Assembly (NCBI GenBank): GCA_947168065.1
Contig: CAMVKH010000005.1
Coordinates: 1 to 64,000, forward strand
Length of the DNA stretch: 64,000 nt
From: an uncultured Bacteroidales bacterium
GTDB lineage: Bacteria; Bacteroidota; Bacteroidia; Bacteroidales; UBA932
Direction of reading: 5' to 3'
The notes under the pieces are model-generated. The model made no database searches. It was not told where the DNA came from and worked only from the letters and a program-made list of their open reading frames with translations. A program made the position numbers and the translations under genes. Below are positions 14,307 to 23,607 of this stretch, one piece after another (the stretch's first letter is position 1; the number at the start of each line of letters is the position of its first letter).

Positions 14307-14411
14307 CATCATAAGGTTTACAAAGTAAAGATGCAAAAATCTCAGAAACCTTGCGTGAATAACGCGACTATTTATCTATTTTATGTTCGATGCTCGCTTT
14401 GACGAAGGAGC

Positions 14412-14447
14412 GAATGTGCAGGAGCCCCCGGCGCCGGGCACAATCCC
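14412..14447 (+). repeat. Palindromic dispersed repeat, copy 3
   Basis: 36 bp, with about four differences from the aligned 36 bp of copy 2 (12309-12344). It keeps the central CCGGCGCCG palindrome and the ends GAATG and GCACAATCCC. It lies in the gap between divergently transcribed genes. Confidence 0.7.
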
Positions 14448-14515
14448 CTTTAGCACAAACCCACCCAATTCTCCTCCCTATCCTCCCACTCTCCTCTTCG
14501 ATAATCGCCTTCTCG

Positions 14516-14545
14516 TTGTGCTCCAACGTTTTTTTCTTATATTTG
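14516..14545 (+). promoter_or_regulatory. Promoter for Tat-exported ferredoxin-like gene
   Basis: TTG (14516-14518), 19 nt, TATATTTG (14538-14545), then the ATG 20 bp further on. A strong match to the Bacteroidota consensus, and it supports the start at 14566. Confidence 0.65.
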
Positions 14546-14565
14546 GTGCAAGAAAGCACAAAACC

Positions 14566-15483
14566 ATGATTAACAGAAGGCAATTCCTGAAAGTCGCGGG
14601 CGTCGGAGCCCTCGCGATGGCCGTTACCCCCTTGGACATACTGATCTCTTCCTGCAAAAGAAATAAGGGAAATGAGAATAATCGTGCACTTTTAGCTGCC
14701 GCCGACAAGGTCTTTTCCCAATTGGAAAACAATACGGTGCTATTACCCGGCGAGCAGATCGTCGTTCCCGTCCTGGATGCGCCGCTGGTCGGGGTCGCAC
14801 GTGCCGACAATCCCCTGTTCGAATCTTTCAGGAATAACGAGGTCATCGGTGCGCAATGGCGGCCGCCGGGAGCGTGGATGCCGGAAGCCAAATCCGTCGT
14901 TGCGTTTTTCTTCCCTGTCTCTTCGGAAATCCGGGCACGGCACCGGGCGGCCCGTACGGCTACGAACGAAGCCTGGAACTTCGGATATGGCAAGCACGGT
15001 CAGGTGGTGAATGCCTTCCTTTCCGGCATGGTCGCCGAAATGGAGCGCCAGGGAGTTAAAACCTTCATTCCTACCAAAGACCCTTCTTTCAAGATTGAGC
15101 GGCAGCCAGTCATGCATGGCGACAAGGAAGACATGCATTATTCCACGTCCTGGTCCAACCGGCATATCGCTTTCGCCGCCGGCCTCGGGACCTTCGGCGT
15201 CCATCGACACCTGATCACCAAATCAGGATGCAGCGGCGTCCTCGCCTCGATGATTCTGGATTGGGAGATGGAGCCCACCCAGGCCGATTATAGGGATCCC
15301 TATGAAAACTGCATCCATTGCGGCGCCTGCGTCAATCGCTGCCCCGCCGGTGCCATCTCACTGGAGAATCTGCGCAACCTCAAGGAATGCTCGACTTACG
15401 CCGCGAACCTGAGGACTGAGAATGATCCGGGTTATTGCGGGAAATGTCTGGTCGGGATTCCCTGTGAATCTGTAAAACCGTAA
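14566..15483 (+). CDS. Tat-exported 4Fe-4S protein, QueG-like fold
   Basis: 305 aa. The N-terminus has a twin-arginine signal, INRRQFLKVAGVGALAMAV. The body resembles the epoxyqueuosine-reductase/reductive-dehalogenase type region (AAGLGTFGVHRHLITKSGCSG) and ends in a ferredoxin segment, CIHCGACVNRCPAGAI (CxxCxxCxxxCP), followed by C-x-x-Y and a further CGKCLVGIPC cluster, enough for two 4Fe-4S centres. Export of a folded redox protein fits the Tat genes in this window (60.1-61.2 kb). A periplasmic reductase or electron-transfer role is inferred; the substrate is unknown, and the Tat signal argues against true QueG, which acts on tRNA in the cytoplasm. Confidence 0.75.
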   Translation: MINRRQFLKVAGVGALAMAVTPLDILISSCKRNKGNENNRALLAAADKVFSQLENNTVLLPGEQIVVPVLDAPLVGVARADNPLFESFRNNEVIGAQWRPPGAWMPEAKSVVAFFFPVSSEIRARHRAARTATNEAWNFGYGKHGQVVNAFLSGMVAEMERQGVKTFIPTKDPSFKIERQPVMHGDKEDMHYSTSWSNRHIAFAAGLGTFGVHRHLITKSGCSGVLASMILDWEMEPTQADYRDPYENCIHCGACVNRCPAGAISLENLRNLKECSTYAANLRTENDPGYCGKCLVGIPCESVKP

Positions 15484-15952: not shown

Positions 15953-15975
15953 CTCTGCAAAACTCATACTTGTCC

Positions 15976-17949
15976 ATGAAAAAGAGCAGCTCTTTACTTT
16001 TGCTGGCAGCCGTTATTGCCGCCACTGTGTTCACGGCCTGTGAAAAGGCATCCTTTCCCATAGCAGGTTCCCGCCTCTATTTCGGGTCTTATCCCACGAA
16101 CGAAGTGGTGGACGGCACCTTCATGGCCGTGGACGGATATGCCCTGAACGACGGGGACGTCATCGCCGATCCTGCGTTGTATGCGAAACTGAAGCACGCT
16201 CTCTGGGACGAGAATGACGACACCAAACTAGACGGCAAGCGCTATCACCGGCTGCGCGGAGACGGTGCCGTCACCGCCATGGGCAACCGTGCGCAGCACT
16301 ACCGCTGGGAGCATCCGGAAGCCTGGCATTACTTTGCCTACGCTCCCATCAAGTGGCGGGTGCTGAGCGTCTCGGGAGGGAAAGCGCTGCTGCTCGCCGA
16401 CCGGATGCCCGACAGCCACCCCTTCCACGACAGTGCCGGGGATGTTTCATGGAGCGGATCCAGTCTCCGGCAGTGGCTCAACACGGCTTTCCTGCAGCGC
16501 GCATTTTCACCCGCCGAACAGGAGTCCATCGTGGAGACGGCTGTCGAAAACGCCCCGAATCACTATTTCGGCACTTCCTGCGGTCCGGACACGAAAGACC
16601 GCGTTTTCCTCCTCTCCGAAGCAGATGTGTTCTCCTCGAACAAGGCCGTTGCCTACGGCTTTGATCCCAGCGACGGCAAGACCGATCCGGCCCGGCGTTT
16701 CCATGCTACGTTGTATGCGAAGTGCCGTGGGGCCTGGTGGTCGCCCAAGGATTCGTCGCTCGGCGGTTCGTTCTGGTTCCTGCGCACCAGCGGCTATACT
16801 GCGGAGAATGCCGTCTACGTCGGGGCAGAAGGTGATATCTACAATCGCGGGCAGGTCAACACCTGCGACGATGCCGCCGTGCTGCCCGCCATCGTGATCG
16901 ATTTGAGCCGCGCGCCCATCAGTCCTGTCATAGAAGCGACGACCGCCGGAAAAAAGTATTCCATCCCTTCGGAGCGCTATACCGGTGACAGTTTCGGTGG
17001 ATTGAACAGTCCCTGGGTGAGAGAGGAACACAAGTTCTCGCACGAAACCCGCTGGTCGTGCCTTTACTTCGGGGCCTACCCTGCCAACGAGATTGTCGGC
17101 GATACGTTCAACGCCGTGGACGATTACGCGCTGGCCGATGGTGACGTCATTCTGGATGCGTCGCTCTACGCCCGGCTGGAAAAGGCAGAGTGGGACGATG
17201 ACGATGACACGATGCTGGACGGCGTGCGCTATCATCGCCTTCGCAGCGAAGGCGCCGTCACCGCCGCCACGGACCGCGAGCAGCACTATCGCTGGCGCGA
17301 TCTGACGGCCTGGCATTATTTCGCCTACGCCCCCATCAAGTGGCGGGTGCTGAAAATCACCGGCTCAAAAGCGCTTCTGCTCGCCGACCGGATGCCCGAC
17401 ACCCATCCTTTCCACGGTCAGGAAATGGATATAGACTGGCGTCGCAGCGACCTGCGCCGGTGGCTGAACGATGCATTTCTGAAGCGCGCCTTCAGCGGGC
17501 AAGAGAGCGCCGCCATGCTCGAGAATCGTATTGAAAACGCCCCCAACGCTTATTTTGGTACCCCCAGCGGTCCTGAAACGCATGACAAGGTATTCATCCT
17601 TTCCGGCAATGAGGTATTCAATTCCCCGCTGGCAGCCGACTATGGTTTCTATCCCGGGAGCGGGCTCGATGACCCCGCCCGGCGTTTCCGCTCCACGCTG
17701 TATGCCAAATGCAGGGGCGCCTGGTGGTCGCCCGTCGAGGCCTATCGCGGCAATTCTTTCTGGCTCATGCGCACCAGCGGATATACGCCCGGCAACATCA
17801 CCTACATCTGCGATTTCGGCTACATCTACAATCAGGGCACGCTGGTCACCTGTGACGATGCAGCCCTTCTGCCCGCCATCACCATCGACCTCAGTTCCGC
17901 GGGCTACACGATCGCACCGGAGGTCAGCTCCAAAGATATCATCCGTTGA
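15976..17949 (+). CDS. Lipoprotein with two tandem DUF6273-like domains
   Basis: 657 aa. Signal MKKSSSLLLLAAVIAATVFTAC with lipobox FTAC. The mature protein is an internal duplication: residues about 33-315 and about 360-645 share the order LYFG-Y-P-NE-V, DGDVI, YHRLR, WHYFAYAPIKWRVL, ALLLADRMPD-HPFH, LR-WLN-AFL-RAFS, VF-LS, YAKCRGAWWSP, RTSGYT, YIYN-G, CDDAA-LPAI-IDLS. The IKWRVL / LLLAD / WLN / RAFS order matches DUF6273, a domain best known from Firmicutes surface proteins. Function is unknown; a surface binding role is possible. The start at 15976 is preferred over a TTG two codons earlier. Confidence 0.75.
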   Translation: MKKSSSLLLLAAVIAATVFTACEKASFPIAGSRLYFGSYPTNEVVDGTFMAVDGYALNDGDVIADPALYAKLKHALWDENDDTKLDGKRYHRLRGDGAVTAMGNRAQHYRWEHPEAWHYFAYAPIKWRVLSVSGGKALLLADRMPDSHPFHDSAGDVSWSGSSLRQWLNTAFLQRAFSPAEQESIVETAVENAPNHYFGTSCGPDTKDRVFLLSEADVFSSNKAVAYGFDPSDGKTDPARRFHATLYAKCRGAWWSPKDSSLGGSFWFLRTSGYTAENAVYVGAEGDIYNRGQVNTCDDAAVLPAIVIDLSRAPISPVIEATTAGKKYSIPSERYTGDSFGGLNSPWVREEHKFSHETRWSCLYFGAYPANEIVGDTFNAVDDYALADGDVILDASLYARLEKAEWDDDDDTMLDGVRYHRLRSEGAVTAATDREQHYRWRDLTAWHYFAYAPIKWRVLKITGSKALLLADRMPDTHPFHGQEMDIDWRRSDLRRWLNDAFLKRAFSGQESAAMLENRIENAPNAYFGTPSGPETHDKVFILSGNEVFNSPLAADYGFYPGSGLDDPARRFRSTLYAKCRGAWWSPVEAYRGNSFWLMRTSGYTPGNITYICDFGYIYNQGTLVTCDDAALLPAITIDLSSAGYTIAPEVSSKDIIR

Positions 17950-17993: not shown

Positions 17994-18800
17994 TTACAAG
18001 TTCAAGAGCCGCCTGGTTTCCGCCCATATCCTTTCATCCATAGACGGGTCGATATACCGGGTCGGAATAACCCGGCTTTTTCCTCCCACATAGTAGCGCG
18101 TACGTGCGTCTTCCGCAAGGGCGCGCAAGGCCGGACGGACGCCGGCCTGCGGTGACTTGCACAATGGCTTGAACAATATATCGGCCAGCGGATCGTACCA
18201 GTGACCCAGGTCAATCATGTCGGAAGCGACGATGCCCGGGTCGGCCAGGTTGACATGCAAGTCCGGATGACGCCGCGCCAGCTCGAGAGAGAACGACAGC
18301 AGCGCGCGTTTGGCCCGGGCATACGTACCGAGCTGGCTGAATTCTTTCTCGCCCGGCTGCAGGATGGCCTCGTCCAGCGACACAAAGCGACAGGTCAGCG
18401 ACACCATATTCACGACATGCGCGTCCTGCGGCAGTTTCGGCAGCAGGAGCTGCGTCAGGAGCCAGGGTCCGAAGTAATTGACAGAGAAAGTGTTTTCAAA
18501 TCCGTCTTCCGTCAGGCAGAAGCCTTTCGATATGACACCGGCGTTGTTGAAGAGCGCCACGGCCGAGCCGGGTTCAACGCTTTCCGCGAAAGAACGCACG
18601 GAAGCCATGGAAGCCAGGTCCAGGGGCCGGACCTCGATGTCGGCGCCGGGAACGCGAAGAAGAATGTTTGCACGCACCGCCGCGGCTTTTTCCAGATTAC
18701 GGCAGGCCATCAGCACGGGGATTCCCCGGCGGGCCAGGGAAACGACCGCCGCGGCCCCCATGCTGCCCGTAGCGCCGGTCACGATGATTCTTCCTTTCAT
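17994..18800 (-). CDS. Short-chain dehydrogenase/reductase (steroid-type operon, gene 4)
   Basis: 268 aa SDR. NAD(P)-binding TGATGSMGAAA near residue 8, NNAG in ALFNNAGVIS, catalytic Ser in VNMVSLT and catalytic YARAK (Tyr-x-x-x-Lys). The layout is that of retinol-dehydrogenase/WW-oxidoreductase-like SDRs, which act on hydroxy/keto groups of lipophilic substrates. ATG 18800 overlaps the stop of the Old Yellow Enzyme gene by 4 bp, so translation is coupled. By context it could be the hydroxysteroid dehydrogenase that sets the 3-hydroxyl; the substrate is not proven. Confidence 0.85.
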   Translation of the reverse strand: MKGRIIVTGATGSMGAAAVVSLARRGIPVLMACRNLEKAAAVRANILLRVPGADIEVRPLDLASMASVRSFAESVEPGSAVALFNNAGVISKGFCLTEDGFENTFSVNYFGPWLLTQLLLPKLPQDAHVVNMVSLTCRFVSLDEAILQPGEKEFSQLGTYARAKRALLSFSLELARRHPDLHVNLADPGIVASDMIDLGHWYDPLADILFKPLCKSPQAGVRPALRALAEDARTRYYVGGKSRVIPTRYIDPSMDERIWAETRRLLNL

Positions 18801-20032
18801 TTCCACCTTTTCTCAGCCTCTTCCACCTCCCGGCGCAGCCGTTCCGGCAGGTCGGCCACGCAGCGGTTGCATTTCATCTCCAGGGTATACATCCGTCCGA
18901 TACAGTAATTCGAATGGCCGCACGGGCTCCGGTCGATGGCTCCGCTACGGAGTTTGTTGACGAATTCGGTGTCCCGGATCAGCGCCCGGGCCATCTGCAG
19001 ACCCGCAAAACCCGCCGCGAGCACTTCTTCCATCTTCTGCCGGGAAACCATGCCGCCCACGTAGACCAGCGGCAACTTGACCGCTGCACGGAACTTCATC
19101 GCATCTTCCAGGAAATAAGCTTCCTTGTAAGGGACGGTCGGAATGATCTTCTTTCCGGCCAGCAAAAGCAAGGGTTTGAACCACAAGTATTGGAGACGGG
19201 GAACATAATGAGCCATCGTACGAAGCGGCATGTCGCCGCGCATCACTTCCATGGGAGCCTTGCTCACGAATCCCGCCGAGAGGACGAGCGCATGCACGCC
19301 AAGCCGCTCCAGTTCGCGGGCTACTTCAAGGCACTCGTCCTTCTGCATGCCGCCGCGAAAGCCGTCGTGCATATTCATCTTTACCAGCACGCCCATATCA
19401 TCGCCCGCCGCCTCCATGACGCGCCGGATGACGCGCTGCATCAGTCGCATCCGGTTTTGCAGCGAACCGCCGTATTCATCGCGCCGGTGGTTGGTATAAG
19501 GAGACAGGAACTGGCTGATGAGGTAACCGTGCCCGGCGTGGATCTCCACGCAATCGAATCCGGCTTCCCGCGCCAGGTCTACGGCATGTCCGAAATCTTC
19601 CACCAGTGCATCGATCTCGGGAACCTTGAGGCCCCGCACGAAGGTGGGCGAGTACAGGTTGAAGCCGCCCGAGGCACCGACGGGCATACAGCCGCAGGTG
19701 GAGCGGTGCGTCATGTTGCCACAGTGTCCCAGCTGGATGGAACACTTCGCACCGGCGGCATGCACCGCATCCGTAATCCGTTTCAGTCCGGGAATGATGG
19801 CCTCGCGCAACCAGAGCTGCCCCTTGAACGACAAACCGCTCCGGCTCACGGACGCGTAGGCCAGCGTGGTCATCCCTACTCCGCCCCGGGCCACGGCCAC
19901 ATGGTAGTCGTACAGGTCCTGAGACGGGCTGTTTCCATACGCCATGTTCTCGAAAGCCGCCGAGCGGATGATACGGTTCCGCAGGATCACGGGGCCGATG
20001 TTGAATGGCGTGAAGATCGGAGAGTCAATCAT
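18797..20032 (-). CDS. NADH:flavin oxidoreductase, Old Yellow Enzyme family (gene 3)
   Basis: 411 aa FMN barrel. Family motifs: TPFNIGPVILRNRIIRSA at the N-terminus, GHCGN, EIHAGHGYLISQFLSPYTNH, RRDEYGGSLQNR, LVKMN and YVGGM. A Cys-bearing tail (SPCGHSNYCIGRM, MKCNRC) follows the barrel and may bind an Fe-S cluster, but the second FAD/NAD domain of BaiCD/BaiH-size enzymes (about 640 aa) is missing. Family members reduce activated C=C bonds, including delta4 or delta1 bonds of 3-oxo steroids and bile acids. Next to a steroid 5-alpha-reductase homologue, a steroid ene-reductase role is a fair inference. The start lies 1 bp after the preceding stop. Confidence 0.85.
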   Translation of the reverse strand: MIDSPIFTPFNIGPVILRNRIIRSAAFENMAYGNSPSQDLYDYHVAVARGGVGMTTLAYASVSRSGLSFKGQLWLREAIIPGLKRITDAVHAAGAKCSIQLGHCGNMTHRSTCGCMPVGASGGFNLYSPTFVRGLKVPEIDALVEDFGHAVDLAREAGFDCVEIHAGHGYLISQFLSPYTNHRRDEYGGSLQNRMRLMQRVIRRVMEAAGDDMGVLVKMNMHDGFRGGMQKDECLEVARELERLGVHALVLSAGFVSKAPMEVMRGDMPLRTMAHYVPRLQYLWFKPLLLLAGKKIIPTVPYKEAYFLEDAMKFRAAVKLPLVYVGGMVSRQKMEEVLAAGFAGLQMARALIRDTEFVNKLRSGAIDRSPCGHSNYCIGRMYTLEMKCNRCVADLPERLRREVEEAEKRWK

Positions 20033-20033
20033 A

Positions 20034-20804
20034 TCAGTAAATAAAGGGAATTATGCGTTTGGTGCGCGCCGTATCGAGTTCCCCGGGGTATTCGTGATGG
20101 TAAAGGTCATGGATGCGCGCGGCTCGGGGCGCCAGATTGGCGAAGGTCCAGAGCGCGAAGACCGCACCCGCCCATGACCAGGTGAGGATGGCGAAGCCCA
20201 CCCATTCCATGAACTCACCGAAGTAATTGGCGCTGGTCACGTAGCGGAACATCCCGCCGCGGGGCAGGTAATGTGCCGTATCGCCCGGTTGACGAAGACG
20301 CCGGATGATGCTGTCGGAATGAATGTTGATGAACATCCCTGCCAGAAAGACCGCCGTGCCGCACAGGAAGGGCGCGCTGGTCAGCCAGGACAAGGGATAT
20401 CGTTCCGGCGGTGAAACATAGAAAATCCAGCCGCCCTGCATCAGGGCGTTCAGCGTATTGAACACCATGCCCATCAGCACGATGGATAGCGGCATCCGGC
20501 TGTGCCCGCGCAACTGCAGCGGGAAAATGAACGAGCGGTGAAAATAGTGGCTCTCGAACAGGACCAGGAAGACCAGCCGGACCACATCGTCGCGGCGGTC
20601 GGAGAACCGCCAGAGCAGCAGCATCGCCACGAAGACCGGCGCCTCCATCAGGACCCATCCCAGATGGTTATCGCACGAAGGGCCCCATTTTTCCGTATAG
20701 AATTTCCCGTATCCGGCGTTCACGCGGTACAGCGCAAAGAATACCACCACGGCAATGGCGGCCATCACCGCCAGGAAGATATTGAATGTGTGCGGAGAGA
20801 ACAT
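20034..20804 (-). CDS. Steroid 5-alpha-reductase-like membrane protein (gene 2)
   Basis: 256 aa with about six or seven membrane segments. The C-terminal third matches the signature of the 3-oxo-5-alpha-steroid 4-dehydrogenase family: FRYVTSANYFGEFMEWVGFA, then TFANLAPRAARIHDLYHHEY, ending RTKRIIPFIY (family form: V-x-x-x-NY-x-x-E-x-x-EW-x-G, L-x-PRA-x-x-x-H-x-WY, R-x-x-x-IPF). Such proteins reduce the delta4 bond of 3-oxo steroids using NADPH; related DUF1295 proteins have other lipid substrates. The ATG at 20804 shares one base with the TGA of the SDR gene before it. Homologous reductases in gut Bacteroidales are reported to act on 3-oxo bile acids. Confidence 0.8.
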   Translation of the reverse strand: MFSPHTFNIFLAVMAAIAVVVFFALYRVNAGYGKFYTEKWGPSCDNHLGWVLMEAPVFVAMLLLWRFSDRRDDVVRLVFLVLFESHYFHRSFIFPLQLRGHSRMPLSIVLMGMVFNTLNALMQGGWIFYVSPPERYPLSWLTSAPFLCGTAVFLAGMFINIHSDSIIRRLRQPGDTAHYLPRGGMFRYVTSANYFGEFMEWVGFAILTWSWAGAVFALWTFANLAPRAARIHDLYHHEYPGELDTARTKRIIPFIY

Positions 20805-21568
20805 CACTTGACTTTTTTCCAGAGAAAGGCGACCAGCGGGCCGGGCAGCAATGCGATCAAGGCCGGAAGCCATACGTTCATAAAACCGGGGCTGACAACA
20901 CGGCGGCGACGGAACATGGCGCGCAGGGCTTGTTTCACAAGTCTTTGCGGGGTCATAATGATACCCAGGCGCACGCCCAGCCGCATTTTGTTTTCGTCCA
21001 GACGATAGAGCGGCGTGGCGACAGCCGCCGGGCAAACAGTCGTGACGCCCACACCATAGGGTTTCAGTTCATACGAAAGCGAGCGCCCGAAACTTCTGAG
21101 ATAGGCCTTTGTGGCGGAATAGATGGTGATGCCCGGCGCGGGAATCCGGGCGGCCATGGACGACACATTGAGCAGGTAGCCGCTTCCCCGCTGCTTCATG
21201 GCATGGCCGAAAAGCACGCACGTCCGGGTCACTGTAGCCACATGCAGATTAACCATGGACTGAATCATGTCGAGGTCTTCAGGCTGGAGTTCCTTGAAAA
21301 AGAACATACCCGCATTGTTGATGAGGATGTCGGGCAGGAAAGCTGCTTCCCGGCACCATTCGAACAAGCGGTCTGCGGCGTCAGGAGTGGCCAGGTCCTG
21401 GAAACGGGCCCTGACTTCGACCGGAAAACACGCACGCAACATCTCCGCCGCCGCATCCAGTTCATGCTGCCGGTTGCTGACCAGAACCAGATCATATCCC
21501 CGGCCAGCCAGTTGCCGCGCATATTCCAGTCCCATGCCGGAACTACCTCCTGTAATCAGTGCCGTCAT
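20804..21568 (-). CDS. Short-chain dehydrogenase/reductase (gene 1)
   Basis: 254 aa. TGGSSGMG cofactor motif at residue 6, INNAG, NVSSMA (catalytic Ser) and YSATK (Tyr-x-x-x-Lys). The hydrophobic C-terminus (NVWLPALIALLPGPLVAFLW) suggests membrane association, as in HSD17B12/3-ketoacyl reductase-like SDRs. ATG 21568 gives the motif at the usual place; a TTG at 21580 is the other option. It is first in the four-gene unit running to 17994. A hydroxysteroid dehydrogenase role is inferred from neighbours. Confidence 0.85.
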   Translation of the reverse strand: MTALITGGSSGMGLEYARQLAGRGYDLVLVSNRQHELDAAAEMLRACFPVEVRARFQDLATPDAADRLFEWCREAAFLPDILINNAGMFFFKELQPEDLDMIQSMVNLHVATVTRTCVLFGHAMKQRGSGYLLNVSSMAARIPAPGITIYSATKAYLRSFGRSLSYELKPYGVGVTTVCPAAVATPLYRLDENKMRLGVRLGIIMTPQRLVKQALRAMFRRRRVVSPGFMNVWLPALIALLPGPLVAFLWKKVK

Positions 21569-21660
21569 TGATTCGATCAATCAACTGCGAAGATACCGAA
21601 ATAATCCTGCAAACATTATCACTAAACGGGACAATCCTTCCCCGGCCATGCCAGGAACTG

Positions 21661-23559
21661 TTACAGGCGCACCATCAGGCCGCCGTTGAGCCAAAGGCCG
21701 GGCATCGGGAGACCCCCGAAATCGAAGTACGGCGTGTTGAGTATGTTTTCTGCTTCGAGGTAGAGGCGGAAAGAACCGCGCTTGATCAGGCCCGTTTCGA
21801 AACCCAGATTTCCATTGAGCAGGAAATAGGGCTTATAGGACCGGGTGGTATGGTCCGCCGCCGCATAGTTGCCTGCGCGGTCGTAGAGCGTACCCGTGAG
21901 CTGCAAATCCAGCCGGTCGAGCCAGGGAGAAAGCATAATATTGATTGACAGCTTGTTGCGCATGTAGTCAAGCGCATACTCCGAGATCATTCCCCCACTC
22001 TCCTTGTCGGACCAGAGATGGCCGTAGAGGAGCGTTATACTGCGCAGCCAGGTGCCGCTCCGGTACTCCGCCCGCAAGTCCGCGCCCCAGGTGTCTAGGC
22101 GTGTCAATTGCATGCACTGCCAGTCTGCATCGGCCGTCTCCCTCACCCAGTCGATGATGTTGAGACCTCGCCGGTAGAAACCCGTCGCTCCCAGGGTGAC
22201 GGGGCCCAGCCTGTAAGCCGCACCGGTTTTGACAGTCAGCGCCTTTTCCGGCTGCAGGTCCGGATTCCCCTTATGGCCAGGCGCGGTATAATACAGGTCG
22301 GTAAAGCTGGGCAGCCGCATCGACTGCGACACGCCCGCATCCAGGTGCCATCGCTGTGCCGGCCGCCAGTCCAAATGCGCATTCCAGAGCGGCGCCGTAC
22401 CATAGGGAGAGAGGGCGGCGCCCAGCGAAGCCTGCAGACCGATCCGCCTGCCTTCCCAGGCATGCCGCAGGAAAAAGTCGCCGGTATGACGAACCTTCCA
22501 CTTCGTGTAGGTCCGGTCATATCCGGGAACGGGCAGCCGCCATGCCGGCACAGCACCCGTCGTGATATCATCGCCCAGCACCGTGCTCAGTATGTAATGG
22601 CAGGCATAGTCCGTCACCAGCGTGGTGGTACCGCCCCGCCAGTGGTAACCCACCGCGGCGTGCGCGCCGAAATTGTCGGTCTGATGGTGATTGTAGGGCA
22701 CTTTCGATGCATCGCCCCGGATCAGCTGAAAGCAATCGTAGTTTTTGCGATAGGACACCCAGGCGGCCAGCGAGAAAGGACCTGCCGTCTTCAACCAGCG
22801 AAGCGAGGCCAGCGCCGTGGAAGTCTTTTCATACTGCTCCGGGTAAGCCAGTGAGTAAAATCCGGCGGCACCGAAATCGCGCTTCTGCCATCCCGCCTGC
22901 GCATCGAAGGTGCCGGCACGCCCGCTCTCAAACAGCACGCGGCCATAGGTATTCCAGTTCGTAAAGTCCGTGCAAGGCCTGTATCCGTCACTGCGCCGGA
23001 GCGAAGCGGCGCCGAACAAGCTAAGGCGATCGCCCGCCGTGCGCAGCGAGCCGCTCAGGTTGCCGTAGGCGTAGCCGTAACGGCCTCCCGTCAAATTGGC
23101 GCGCAGGTAGTTTTCGCCGCTCATCCTTGTCCGCACGTTCACTGCGCCCGTGAGGCCTGTATTGCCGCCGATGCCCTCGATCAGGTCCATGCTGCCGATG
23201 ATGTCGGAATCGACGGGAAGGCTGTGGCTCTGGTGACCGGTTCGGGCGTCGGTGAAATCGACGCCGTTGAGCTGGATCATCGTCTGGTCAGGGCTGCCGC
23301 CCCGAATACCGATGTCCGTCTGGACACTCTTCCCGCCACGTTCACGGATGTCAATGGACGGACAGAGCCGCAACAGCTGCTCCAGCGTCTGGGCCTGTGC
23401 CGCAGGAATACGGGAAACGGTCACCAACGGCTCCTGTGTGGTCAGGTTCTGGATGGAAGACCGGTTCTCTGAAGTGACAGTAACCAGATTCAGCGTATCC
23501 TGTGCCCGCAGGGTAAAAACAGCCAGCAAGCTGGCTGCAAGGACGATGAGATGTCGCAT
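21661..23559 (-). CDS. TonB-dependent outer-membrane receptor, BtuB-like
   Basis: 632 aa. Signal peptide MRHLIVLAASLLAVFTLRA. The plug domain holds LEQLLRLCPSIDIRERGG, GIRGGSPDQTMIQLNGVDF and DLIEGIGGNTGLTGAVNVRT, followed by a 22-strand-type barrel ending in a short hydrophobic strand with terminal Leu (GLWLNGGLMVRL). There is no SusC-style N-terminal extension and no SusD partner, so it belongs with BtuB/siderophore-type receptors. It lies 92 bp upstream of the steroid-type operon on the same strand, so it may bring in that substrate, though an unrelated cofactor such as a corrinoid is equally common for this family. Confidence 0.85.
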   Translation of the reverse strand: MRHLIVLAASLLAVFTLRAQDTLNLVTVTSENRSSIQNLTTQEPLVTVSRIPAAQAQTLEQLLRLCPSIDIRERGGKSVQTDIGIRGGSPDQTMIQLNGVDFTDARTGHQSHSLPVDSDIIGSMDLIEGIGGNTGLTGAVNVRTRMSGENYLRANLTGGRYGYAYGNLSGSLRTAGDRLSLFGAASLRRSDGYRPCTDFTNWNTYGRVLFESGRAGTFDAQAGWQKRDFGAAGFYSLAYPEQYEKTSTALASLRWLKTAGPFSLAAWVSYRKNYDCFQLIRGDASKVPYNHHQTDNFGAHAAVGYHWRGGTTTLVTDYACHYILSTVLGDDITTGAVPAWRLPVPGYDRTYTKWKVRHTGDFFLRHAWEGRRIGLQASLGAALSPYGTAPLWNAHLDWRPAQRWHLDAGVSQSMRLPSFTDLYYTAPGHKGNPDLQPEKALTVKTGAAYRLGPVTLGATGFYRRGLNIIDWVRETADADWQCMQLTRLDTWGADLRAEYRSGTWLRSITLLYGHLWSDKESGGMISEYALDYMRNKLSINIMLSPWLDRLDLQLTGTLYDRAGNYAAADHTTRSYKPYFLLNGNLGFETGLIKRGSFRLYLEAENILNTPYFDFGGLPMPGLWLNGGLMVRL

Positions 23560-23607
23560 GACCGGCAGATAAACTTTGGAGCCGCAATTTAGCAAATTTT
23601 GACGAGA

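Follow-up and report, generated by a model that had tools for sequence, protein, structure and literature searches.

We analyzed a 64,000-nucleotide stretch of DNA from an uncultured Bacteroidales bacterium of the UBA932 lineage (contig CAMVKH010000005.1; hereafter "the window") and found that positions 17994-21568 hold a compact operon of four genes: a first short-chain dehydrogenase/reductase (SDR1), a predicted membrane 5-alpha-reductase of the SRD5A type (5AR), an Old Yellow Enzyme (OYE), and a second short-chain dehydrogenase/reductase (SDR2). Building on gene families, operon structure, conservation, catalytic residues, and a derived gene order that could be observed directly, we consider it probable that this operon is a self-contained enzyme set that remodels the A ring of exogenous steroids and that it serves plant steroids rather than bile acids in this lineage. 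One SDR would oxidize the 3-hydroxyl group to a 3-ketone, and the OYE would hydrogenate or dehydrogenate the C4-C5 bond from the 5-beta side, with FMN delivering a hydride to C5, Tyr170 acting as proton donor, and a pair of histidines holding the 3-keto oxygen. The membrane SRD5A protein would use NADPH to turn the 3-oxo-delta4 intermediate into the flat 5-alpha form, and the second SDR would reset the 3-hydroxyl group to the epimer. With these steps, the operon could reduce 3-oxo-delta4 steroids to saturated ones or convert 5-beta steroids to the 5-alpha form while epimerizing C3. The reactions and their directions are those expected from knowledge of the enzyme families; substrate and stereochemistry we infer. 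Neither position 3 nor stereochemistry is legible from the SDR sequences.

The genes are packed tightly (Table 1): SDR1 and 5AR overlap by 1 bp (TGATG), 5AR and OYE are separated by 1 bp, and OYE and SDR2 overlap by 4 bp (ATGA). The original prediction, made from the sequence before this analysis, had described a four-gene operon of touching or overlapping genes with the enzyme classes SDR, 5AR, OYE, and SDR; its coordinates and spacings proved correct throughout, and Pfam matches far above the cut-off bear out the classes. The 5AR motifs that it quoted (NYFGEFMEW, PRAARIHDLYHHEY, and IIPF) are all present in the protein.

Compared with solved structures, the 5AR scored 181 bits against bacterial PbSRD5A (7c83) and 142 bits against human SRD5A2 (7bw1), aligning with them nearly end to end, and just 28 bits against an enoyl-CoA reductase in the Protein Data Bank (PDB). 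These scores identify the membrane protein as an SRD5A relative and not merely a DUF1295 protein; a DUF1295 protein with a non-steroid role was rejected as a candidate, the DUF1295 match reaching 24.4 bits versus 145.4 for Steroid_dh. Both human SRD5A2 and PbSRD5A have a Q-E-Y motif for the 3-keto group, and Q56A/L substitutions abolish the activity of the human enzyme (PMC7815742). The window's protein keeps the last two residues of this motif as E54 and Y87. It also keeps seven (N160, D164, R171, N193, E197, R227, and Y235) of the eight NADPH residues that the same source gives for human SRD5A2, with isoleucine in place of the eighth, H231.

The active-site motif of the OYE, H165-A-G-H168-G-Y170, is shared by 69 of 70 sequences, the remaining one having an X at Y170, and this HxxH-Y site is like that of classical ene-reductases and unlike that of 1ps9. 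With the steroid 5-beta-reductases BaiCD and (from C. innocuum) ci2350, the window's OYE has in common the N-terminal OYE domain and the catalytic tyrosine (Y170) as proton donor. It differs from them in its HxxH site, in an altered cysteine motif, and in its length, since it ends at 411 aa without the C-terminal FAD/NAD domain of BaiCD; the NCBIfam BaiCD model NF041087 has 642 positions and gave 195 bits at a cut-off of 825. By length and by iron-sulfur site, the protein falls outside the BaiCD/ci2350 family. The four-cysteine [4Fe-4S] motif used for comparison, which we take to be that of 1ps9, is not found in the OYE. Instead, its tail reads C371-x-H373-x3-C377-x10-C388, with C371, H373, and C377 present in 70/70 sequences and C388 in 69/70 (one gap). 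Position 374 is S in 56, V in 8, T in 3, and I and A in one each of the 69 (of 70) rows shown, and C391 is partly conserved (55/70). At this site, relatives from Nocardia and Tsukamurella have C-x-H-C-x2-C, those from Sphingobium C-x2-C-x2-C, and those from Rhodococcus C-x-H-N-x2-C. We read the Bacteroidales tail as an iron-sulfur-like motif that is short of one cysteine and has retained the histidine. H373 need not be a replacement ligand, because the same histidine adjoins a full set of cysteines in Nocardia and Tsukamurella.

SDR1 is a classical short-chain dehydrogenase with TGGSSGMG and NNAG motifs as well as S140/S141, Y154, and K158 (numbered on the 258-aa translation P0001 from the TTG at 21580). 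These residues are at least 95% conserved in 60 sequences including that of the window, and SDR1 is 39-100% identical to the SDR1 proteins of relatives. SDR2 belongs to the protochlorophyllide reductase/PRK06197-like SDR group and has Y162 and K166 (43 sequences compared; numbered on the 270-aa translation P0004 from a GTG at 18806); its A34-C35-R36 suggests use of NADPH. We propose SDR1 as one 3-hydroxysteroid dehydrogenase and SDR2 as a second one. The OYE and SDR families are broad, the HxxH-Y site is a classical enone site, and many of the nearest OYEs of solved structure are general ene-reductases, all of which would fit an operon for the general detoxification of enones and ketones from plants (terpenoids or triterpenoid saponin aglycones) that meets steroids incidentally. 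We regard such a role as improbable, since the SRD5A relatives of solved structure are steroid reductases whose steroid-binding E and Y are kept in the 5AR, and since an operon that combines a 5AR with a second ene-reductase and two SDRs would best fit a steroid A ring.

The gene neighborhood that we assign to steroid A-ring chemistry is conserved in other Bacteroidales. A 15-row 5AR alignment, used to scan named genomes, yielded at least 572 confirmed relatives, of which the best 80 were kept for the locus comparison and for the trees, so that distant groups are under-sampled in the latter. Among the 79 loci that are testable because at least 600 bp follow the 5AR, an OYE of the same family lies within 200 bp downstream on the same strand in 70, an arrangement that is more than chance; L068, L088, L106, L109, L111, L113, L115, L116, and L117 have none. 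Enough flank on both sides was available in 62 "roomy" loci, where SDR1 is present in 49, SDR2 in 36, and both in 32. Their commonest order is 5AR-OYE-SDR1-SDR2 (19/62), and the window's order SDR1-5AR-OYE-SDR2 is found in five of them. The original prediction had suggested a distinct version of the steroid gene set, which holds for the gene order and not for its content: New gene content was rejected, because the set with two SDRs and a short OYE is the commonest one among these loci.

The four-gene operon is also present in Sanguibacteroides (L136), Heminiphilus faecis (L107), and Barnesiella (L118 and L124), and Phocaeicola massiliensis has 5AR-OYE-SDR2. Within the GTDB family of Sanguibacteroides, which we take to be akin to Odoribacter, 12 of 56 genomes gave a strong OYE match (E <= 8e-192) and 23 more a weak one. 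The 12 loci fetched from this family (L137-L148) all have a 5AR beside the OYE and an SDR2 match, 10 of them in the order 5AR-OYE-SDR1-SDR2; in this family, identity to the window's OYE is 60-63% and to its 5AR 58-67%. A Parabacteroides distasonis record shows OYE-SDR1 and no 5AR within 9 kb, which agrees with a statement that this species is without an annotated 5AR (PMC6069880) and sits oddly with an association between its abundance and 5AR genes (PMC12589954). The comparison with Odoribacteraceae and Parabacteroides proteins that the original prediction called for was made through relatives only (the Sanguibacteroides family, Phocaeicola massiliensis, and P. distasonis), and homologous genes are present there.

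In an order-wide sample of 393 genomes, PF02544 matched in 162 and the OYE at E <= 1e-60 in 68. OYE and 5AR lie within 600 bp of each other on the same strand in 39 of the 54 genomes with an OYE of at least 577 bits, from 15 families; the 54 include the window's own genome, and the two match lists were compared by eye. In another, more distant Bacteroidales SRD5A group (35-41% identity), the flanks of the best 30 loci (L027-L056), up to 1.5 kb long and in some cases limited by contig ends, hold no OYE. Tight linkage of 5AR and OYE therefore characterizes one SRD5A group, and the other shows a looser trace of it.

Some individual loci deserve mention in their own right. The operon also occurs in L110 (JAMPAQ010000001.1), a record titled Pseudoflavonifractor (Bacillota), whose 5AR and SDR1 are placed close to those of Heminiphilus and other Bacteroidales on the trees; it may be a mislabeled metagenome-assembled genome (MAG) or a case of transfer. 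"Plasmid 9" of P. distasonis (L180, NZ_OY725754.1) carries OYE-SDR1 downstream of RND efflux genes and next to ribosomal protein L25 and pth, and looks like a piece of chromosome labeled as a plasmid. A 207-aa lipoprotein-like gene stands between 5AR and OYE in L020, and L021-L024 show the same spacing; these five loci are from members of the window's genus with a 55-56% identical 5AR. In L144 (G451), the OYE match contains one internal TAG, which may reflect either decay of this copy or an error in sequencing. Genome G021, a small one, holds two near-full 5AR copies (C31 and C34), each with SDR1 nearby.

The window's gene order is derived, SDR1 having moved ahead of 5AR. Among the 11 rows with SDR1 in first position, the 5AR tree places 10 inside a 25-row clade together with the window (support 100/99) and L076 outside it. 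The SDR1-first rows do not form one clean group there: five changes are needed, at least three of them forced by starred branches. This scatter is partly due to interspersed rows without a visible SDR1, and bootstrap values for this tree had yet to converge. In the tree built from SDR1, those ten rows group together (94/89, a little short of a star), again without L076. The moved block comprises SDR1 and a gene for a PCMD-domain protein in L060, L064, and L071, and L072, L074, L077, and L096 have the order 5AR-OYE-SDR1-PCMD-SDR2. The simplest path would be a joint shift of SDR1 and the PCMD gene ahead of 5AR, followed by loss of the PCMD gene in the window's line. Of the 62 roomy loci, 19 encode this protein (PF13201), a possible partner, within or next to the operon (e.g., L060:6039-6989), and the operon of the window has none beside it; the N-terminus of the protein looks like a signal peptide.

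SRD5A-like and DUF1295 folds serve on lipids too. Together with the PCMD protein encoded within or next to several relatives' operons, this would fit an SRD5A protein that acts on an endogenous lipid (polyprenol-like or another membrane lipid) as part of envelope lipid synthesis. We give this explanation very little credence: The patchy occurrence of 5AR, which is present in 28 of 61 near relatives and, as PF02544, in 162/393 genomes sampled across the order, is ill-suited to an essential lipid step, as is its duplication in G021, and the protein resembles SRD5A1/2 far more than it does the PDB's enoyl-CoA reductase.

Returning to exogenous steroids, the habitat of the window's relatives bears on the choice of substrate. 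Apart from the window, the 25-row 5AR clade contains, according to record titles, 11 rows from rumen, reticulum, or omasum, one from abomasum, four with RUG names, which we take to denote rumen uncultured genomes, and eight that name no site; none of these 24 titles refers to intestine or faeces. Rows outside this clade are mixed, including colon, caecum, rectum, duodenum, and horse faeces as well as further rumen and stomach records. Because bile enters after the stomachs and these relatives are mostly from the forestomach, bile acids are an unlikely substrate for the window's lineage. PF02275, which covers bile salt hydrolases and related hydrolases, had no match in the window's genome (76.9% complete). 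The original prediction had named a steroid or bile acid as substrate; the absence of intestinal relatives and of a PF02275 match weakens the bile-acid part of that claim. Judging from habitat, plant steroids such as sapogenins (e.g., diosgenone) and phytosterol ketones are likelier substrates here than bile acids.

The rumen turns diosgenin into smilagenin, epismilagenin, and tigogenin (PMC10385484, PMC5535167), and the available excerpts of these two papers name no enzyme for this conversion. Among the papers listed in literature searches on rumen steroid-transforming enzymes, no title names such an enzyme, which is no proof of absence from print. Rumen sapogenin chemistry consists of 5-beta and 5-alpha reduction plus 3-epimerization, the reactions that the operon should perform; this match is circumstantial. 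The sapogenin route also needs a conversion of 3-beta-hydroxy-delta5 to 3-oxo-delta4 forms, which one of the SDRs might carry out. At its most specific, the proposal would be that the operon is the agent that saturates and epimerizes rumen plant steroids, converting diosgenone-type compounds to smilagenin and epismilagenin (5-beta) or tigogenin (5-alpha) and phytosterol ketones to 5-beta or 5-alpha stanols, and that the OYE, having no FAD domain of its own, may be fed by ferredoxin via an iron-sulfur cluster on three cysteines and perhaps H373. We offer this detailed version as a speculation that is unlikely to hold.

By gene content, this kind of operon is known from human gut bacteria; the window's gene order and lineage are new. 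The isoallolithocholate cluster of Parabacteroides merdae (Sato et al. 2021, as described in PMC10382948) comprises a 5AR, an NADH:flavin oxidoreductase called "5BR", and a predicted 3-beta-hydroxysteroid dehydrogenase, and knockout of this 5AR removed the allo-lithocholic acid products. Compared by these described classes, the window has the same enzyme classes in one cluster, with an SRD5A-type membrane 5AR, an NADH:flavin oxidoreductase adjoining it, and two SDRs; it differs in having SDR1 first, in its forestomach relatives, and in a genome without a PF02275 match. The IsmA/coprostanol pathway for cholesterol is similar by chemistry, the only level at which we compared it, in that it involves 3-hydroxyl oxidation, delta4 reduction, and 3-keto reduction (PMC8468837). 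It is clostridial, and the excerpts available from that source mention no SRD5A beside IsmA. The BaiP/BaiJ 5-alpha-reductases of Firmicutes likewise form 5-alpha (allo) bile acids and are described as different from the membrane-associated 5AR of Bacteroidetes (PMC9645264).

Several observations weigh against the reading of the operon as a plant-steroid A-ring set. As to substrate, PF02275 scored above its cut-off (20.4 bits) in 24 of 40 genomes of the genus, among which G035 alone (162 bits) exceeded 65 bits, and bacteria of the hindgut and the human gut, which have bile acids at hand, possess related operons. The operon might simply be the isoallo pathway known from gut Bacteroidota, which leads from lithocholic acid (LCA) or 3-oxoLCA to isoalloLCA, and act on bile acids here too, with the MAG relatives sampled upstream of the intestine by chance or as transients. 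These PF02275 matches would fit that view, as would the gene classes of the P. merdae cluster (PMC10382948) and the homologous operons in the Sanguibacteroides family, Barnesiella, and Phocaeicola massiliensis. With none of the 24 rows of a well-supported clade intestinal by title, no PF02275 match in the incomplete genome of the window, and a single match above 65 bits in the genus, we judge it unlikely.

As to the enzymes, the Q-E-Y motif reads M53-E54-Y87 in the window's 5AR, so that the Q is not kept, and M-E-Y is found in every Bacteroidales 5AR read (136 loci and 39 loci, overlapping sets). The position of H231 is I, L, T, or V throughout the operon-linked 5AR group and H in 23/30 loci of the other Bacteroidales SRD5A group. 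Methionine in place of Q56 is probably tolerated in Bacteroidales 5ARs because the P. merdae 5AR is reported to be active (PMC10382948); we call the window's 5AR SRD5A-type by its homology to the solved structures and not by the Q-E-Y motif. In the OYE, G169 and Q174 near Tyr170 differ from the residues of ci2350 and the BaiCD clade (PMC11722256), and the 5-beta role is a proposal.

As to linkage, 5AR stands without OYE or SDRs in 5/62 roomy loci, so that the genes are separable, and OYE lies away from 5AR in 15 of the 54 order-wide genomes (13 on other contigs, G278 at 2.3 kb, and G325 with no PF02544 match). The operon is not genus-wide: 14 of 37 genus genomes, many of them incomplete, have no 5AR match, and seven have just a 53-56% identical 5AR. 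In the other SRD5A group, a weak SDR neighbor (24-25% identity) is present in 3/30 loci, and in G111, G215, and G307 (family f75), an SRD5A gene of that group is accompanied on the same contig and strand, at a distance of about 9 kb, by an OYE scoring 381-393 bits. The OYE frame of these three genomes holds one stop; this looser form of the pairing is perhaps decaying, or the stop may be recoded.

The position of a candidate -7 element ahead of SDR1 (Table 1) suggests a transcript starting at this gene; we take the consensus used, TAnnTTnG, to be of Bacteroidota type. In a scan without chance control, the 130 nt ahead of the first gene contained such a box in 7/11 loci with SDR1 first and, among loci with 5AR first, in five of the 10 scanned out of 50. 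A TonB-dependent receptor encoded 92 bp upstream of the SDR1 ATG is weakly similar to haem and B12 receptors. We rejected it as part of the system: It stands beside the cluster in 1/80 loci (L057, a 99% relative) and is probably unrelated. The window also encodes a Tat-signal protein that resembles reductive-dehalogenase-like proteins.

Table 1. Genes and candidate signals of the operon and its surroundings in the window.
Feature	Position	Strand	Remarks
SDR1	21568-20804	-	First operon gene; ATG start, in-frame TTG at 21580; adh_short 128.7 bits (Pfam)
5AR (SRD5A-type 5-alpha-reductase)	20804-20034	-	Steroid_dh PF02544 145.4 bits, cut-off 22.6 (Pfam)
OYE (Old Yellow Enzyme), 411 aa	20032-18797	-	Oxidored_FMN 182.1 bits (Pfam)
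SDR2	18800-17994	-	adh_short 70.6 bits (Pfam)
Candidate Bacteroidota -7 element TATCTTCG	21588..21595	-	27 bases upstream of SDR1 ATG
TonB-dependent receptor	21661-23595	-	
Tat-signal protein	14383-15483	+	4Fe-4S motifs; weakly similar to QueG
659-aa protein	15970-17949	+	Two DUF6273 stretches; convergent with operon

Rumen-formed epismilagenin, once conjugated in the liver, can deposit, block bile flow, and photosensitize grazing ruminants (PMC5535167). In herbivore faeces, the predominant 5-beta-stanols are 24-ethylcoprostanol and 24-ethylepicoprostanol (PMC6366745). With a specific operon and lineage to look for, the search for the microbes and enzymes behind epismilagenin and these faecal stanols would become directly testable. 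If our reading is true, a set of genes known to make immune-active bile acids in people would have a wider use on steroids from the diet.

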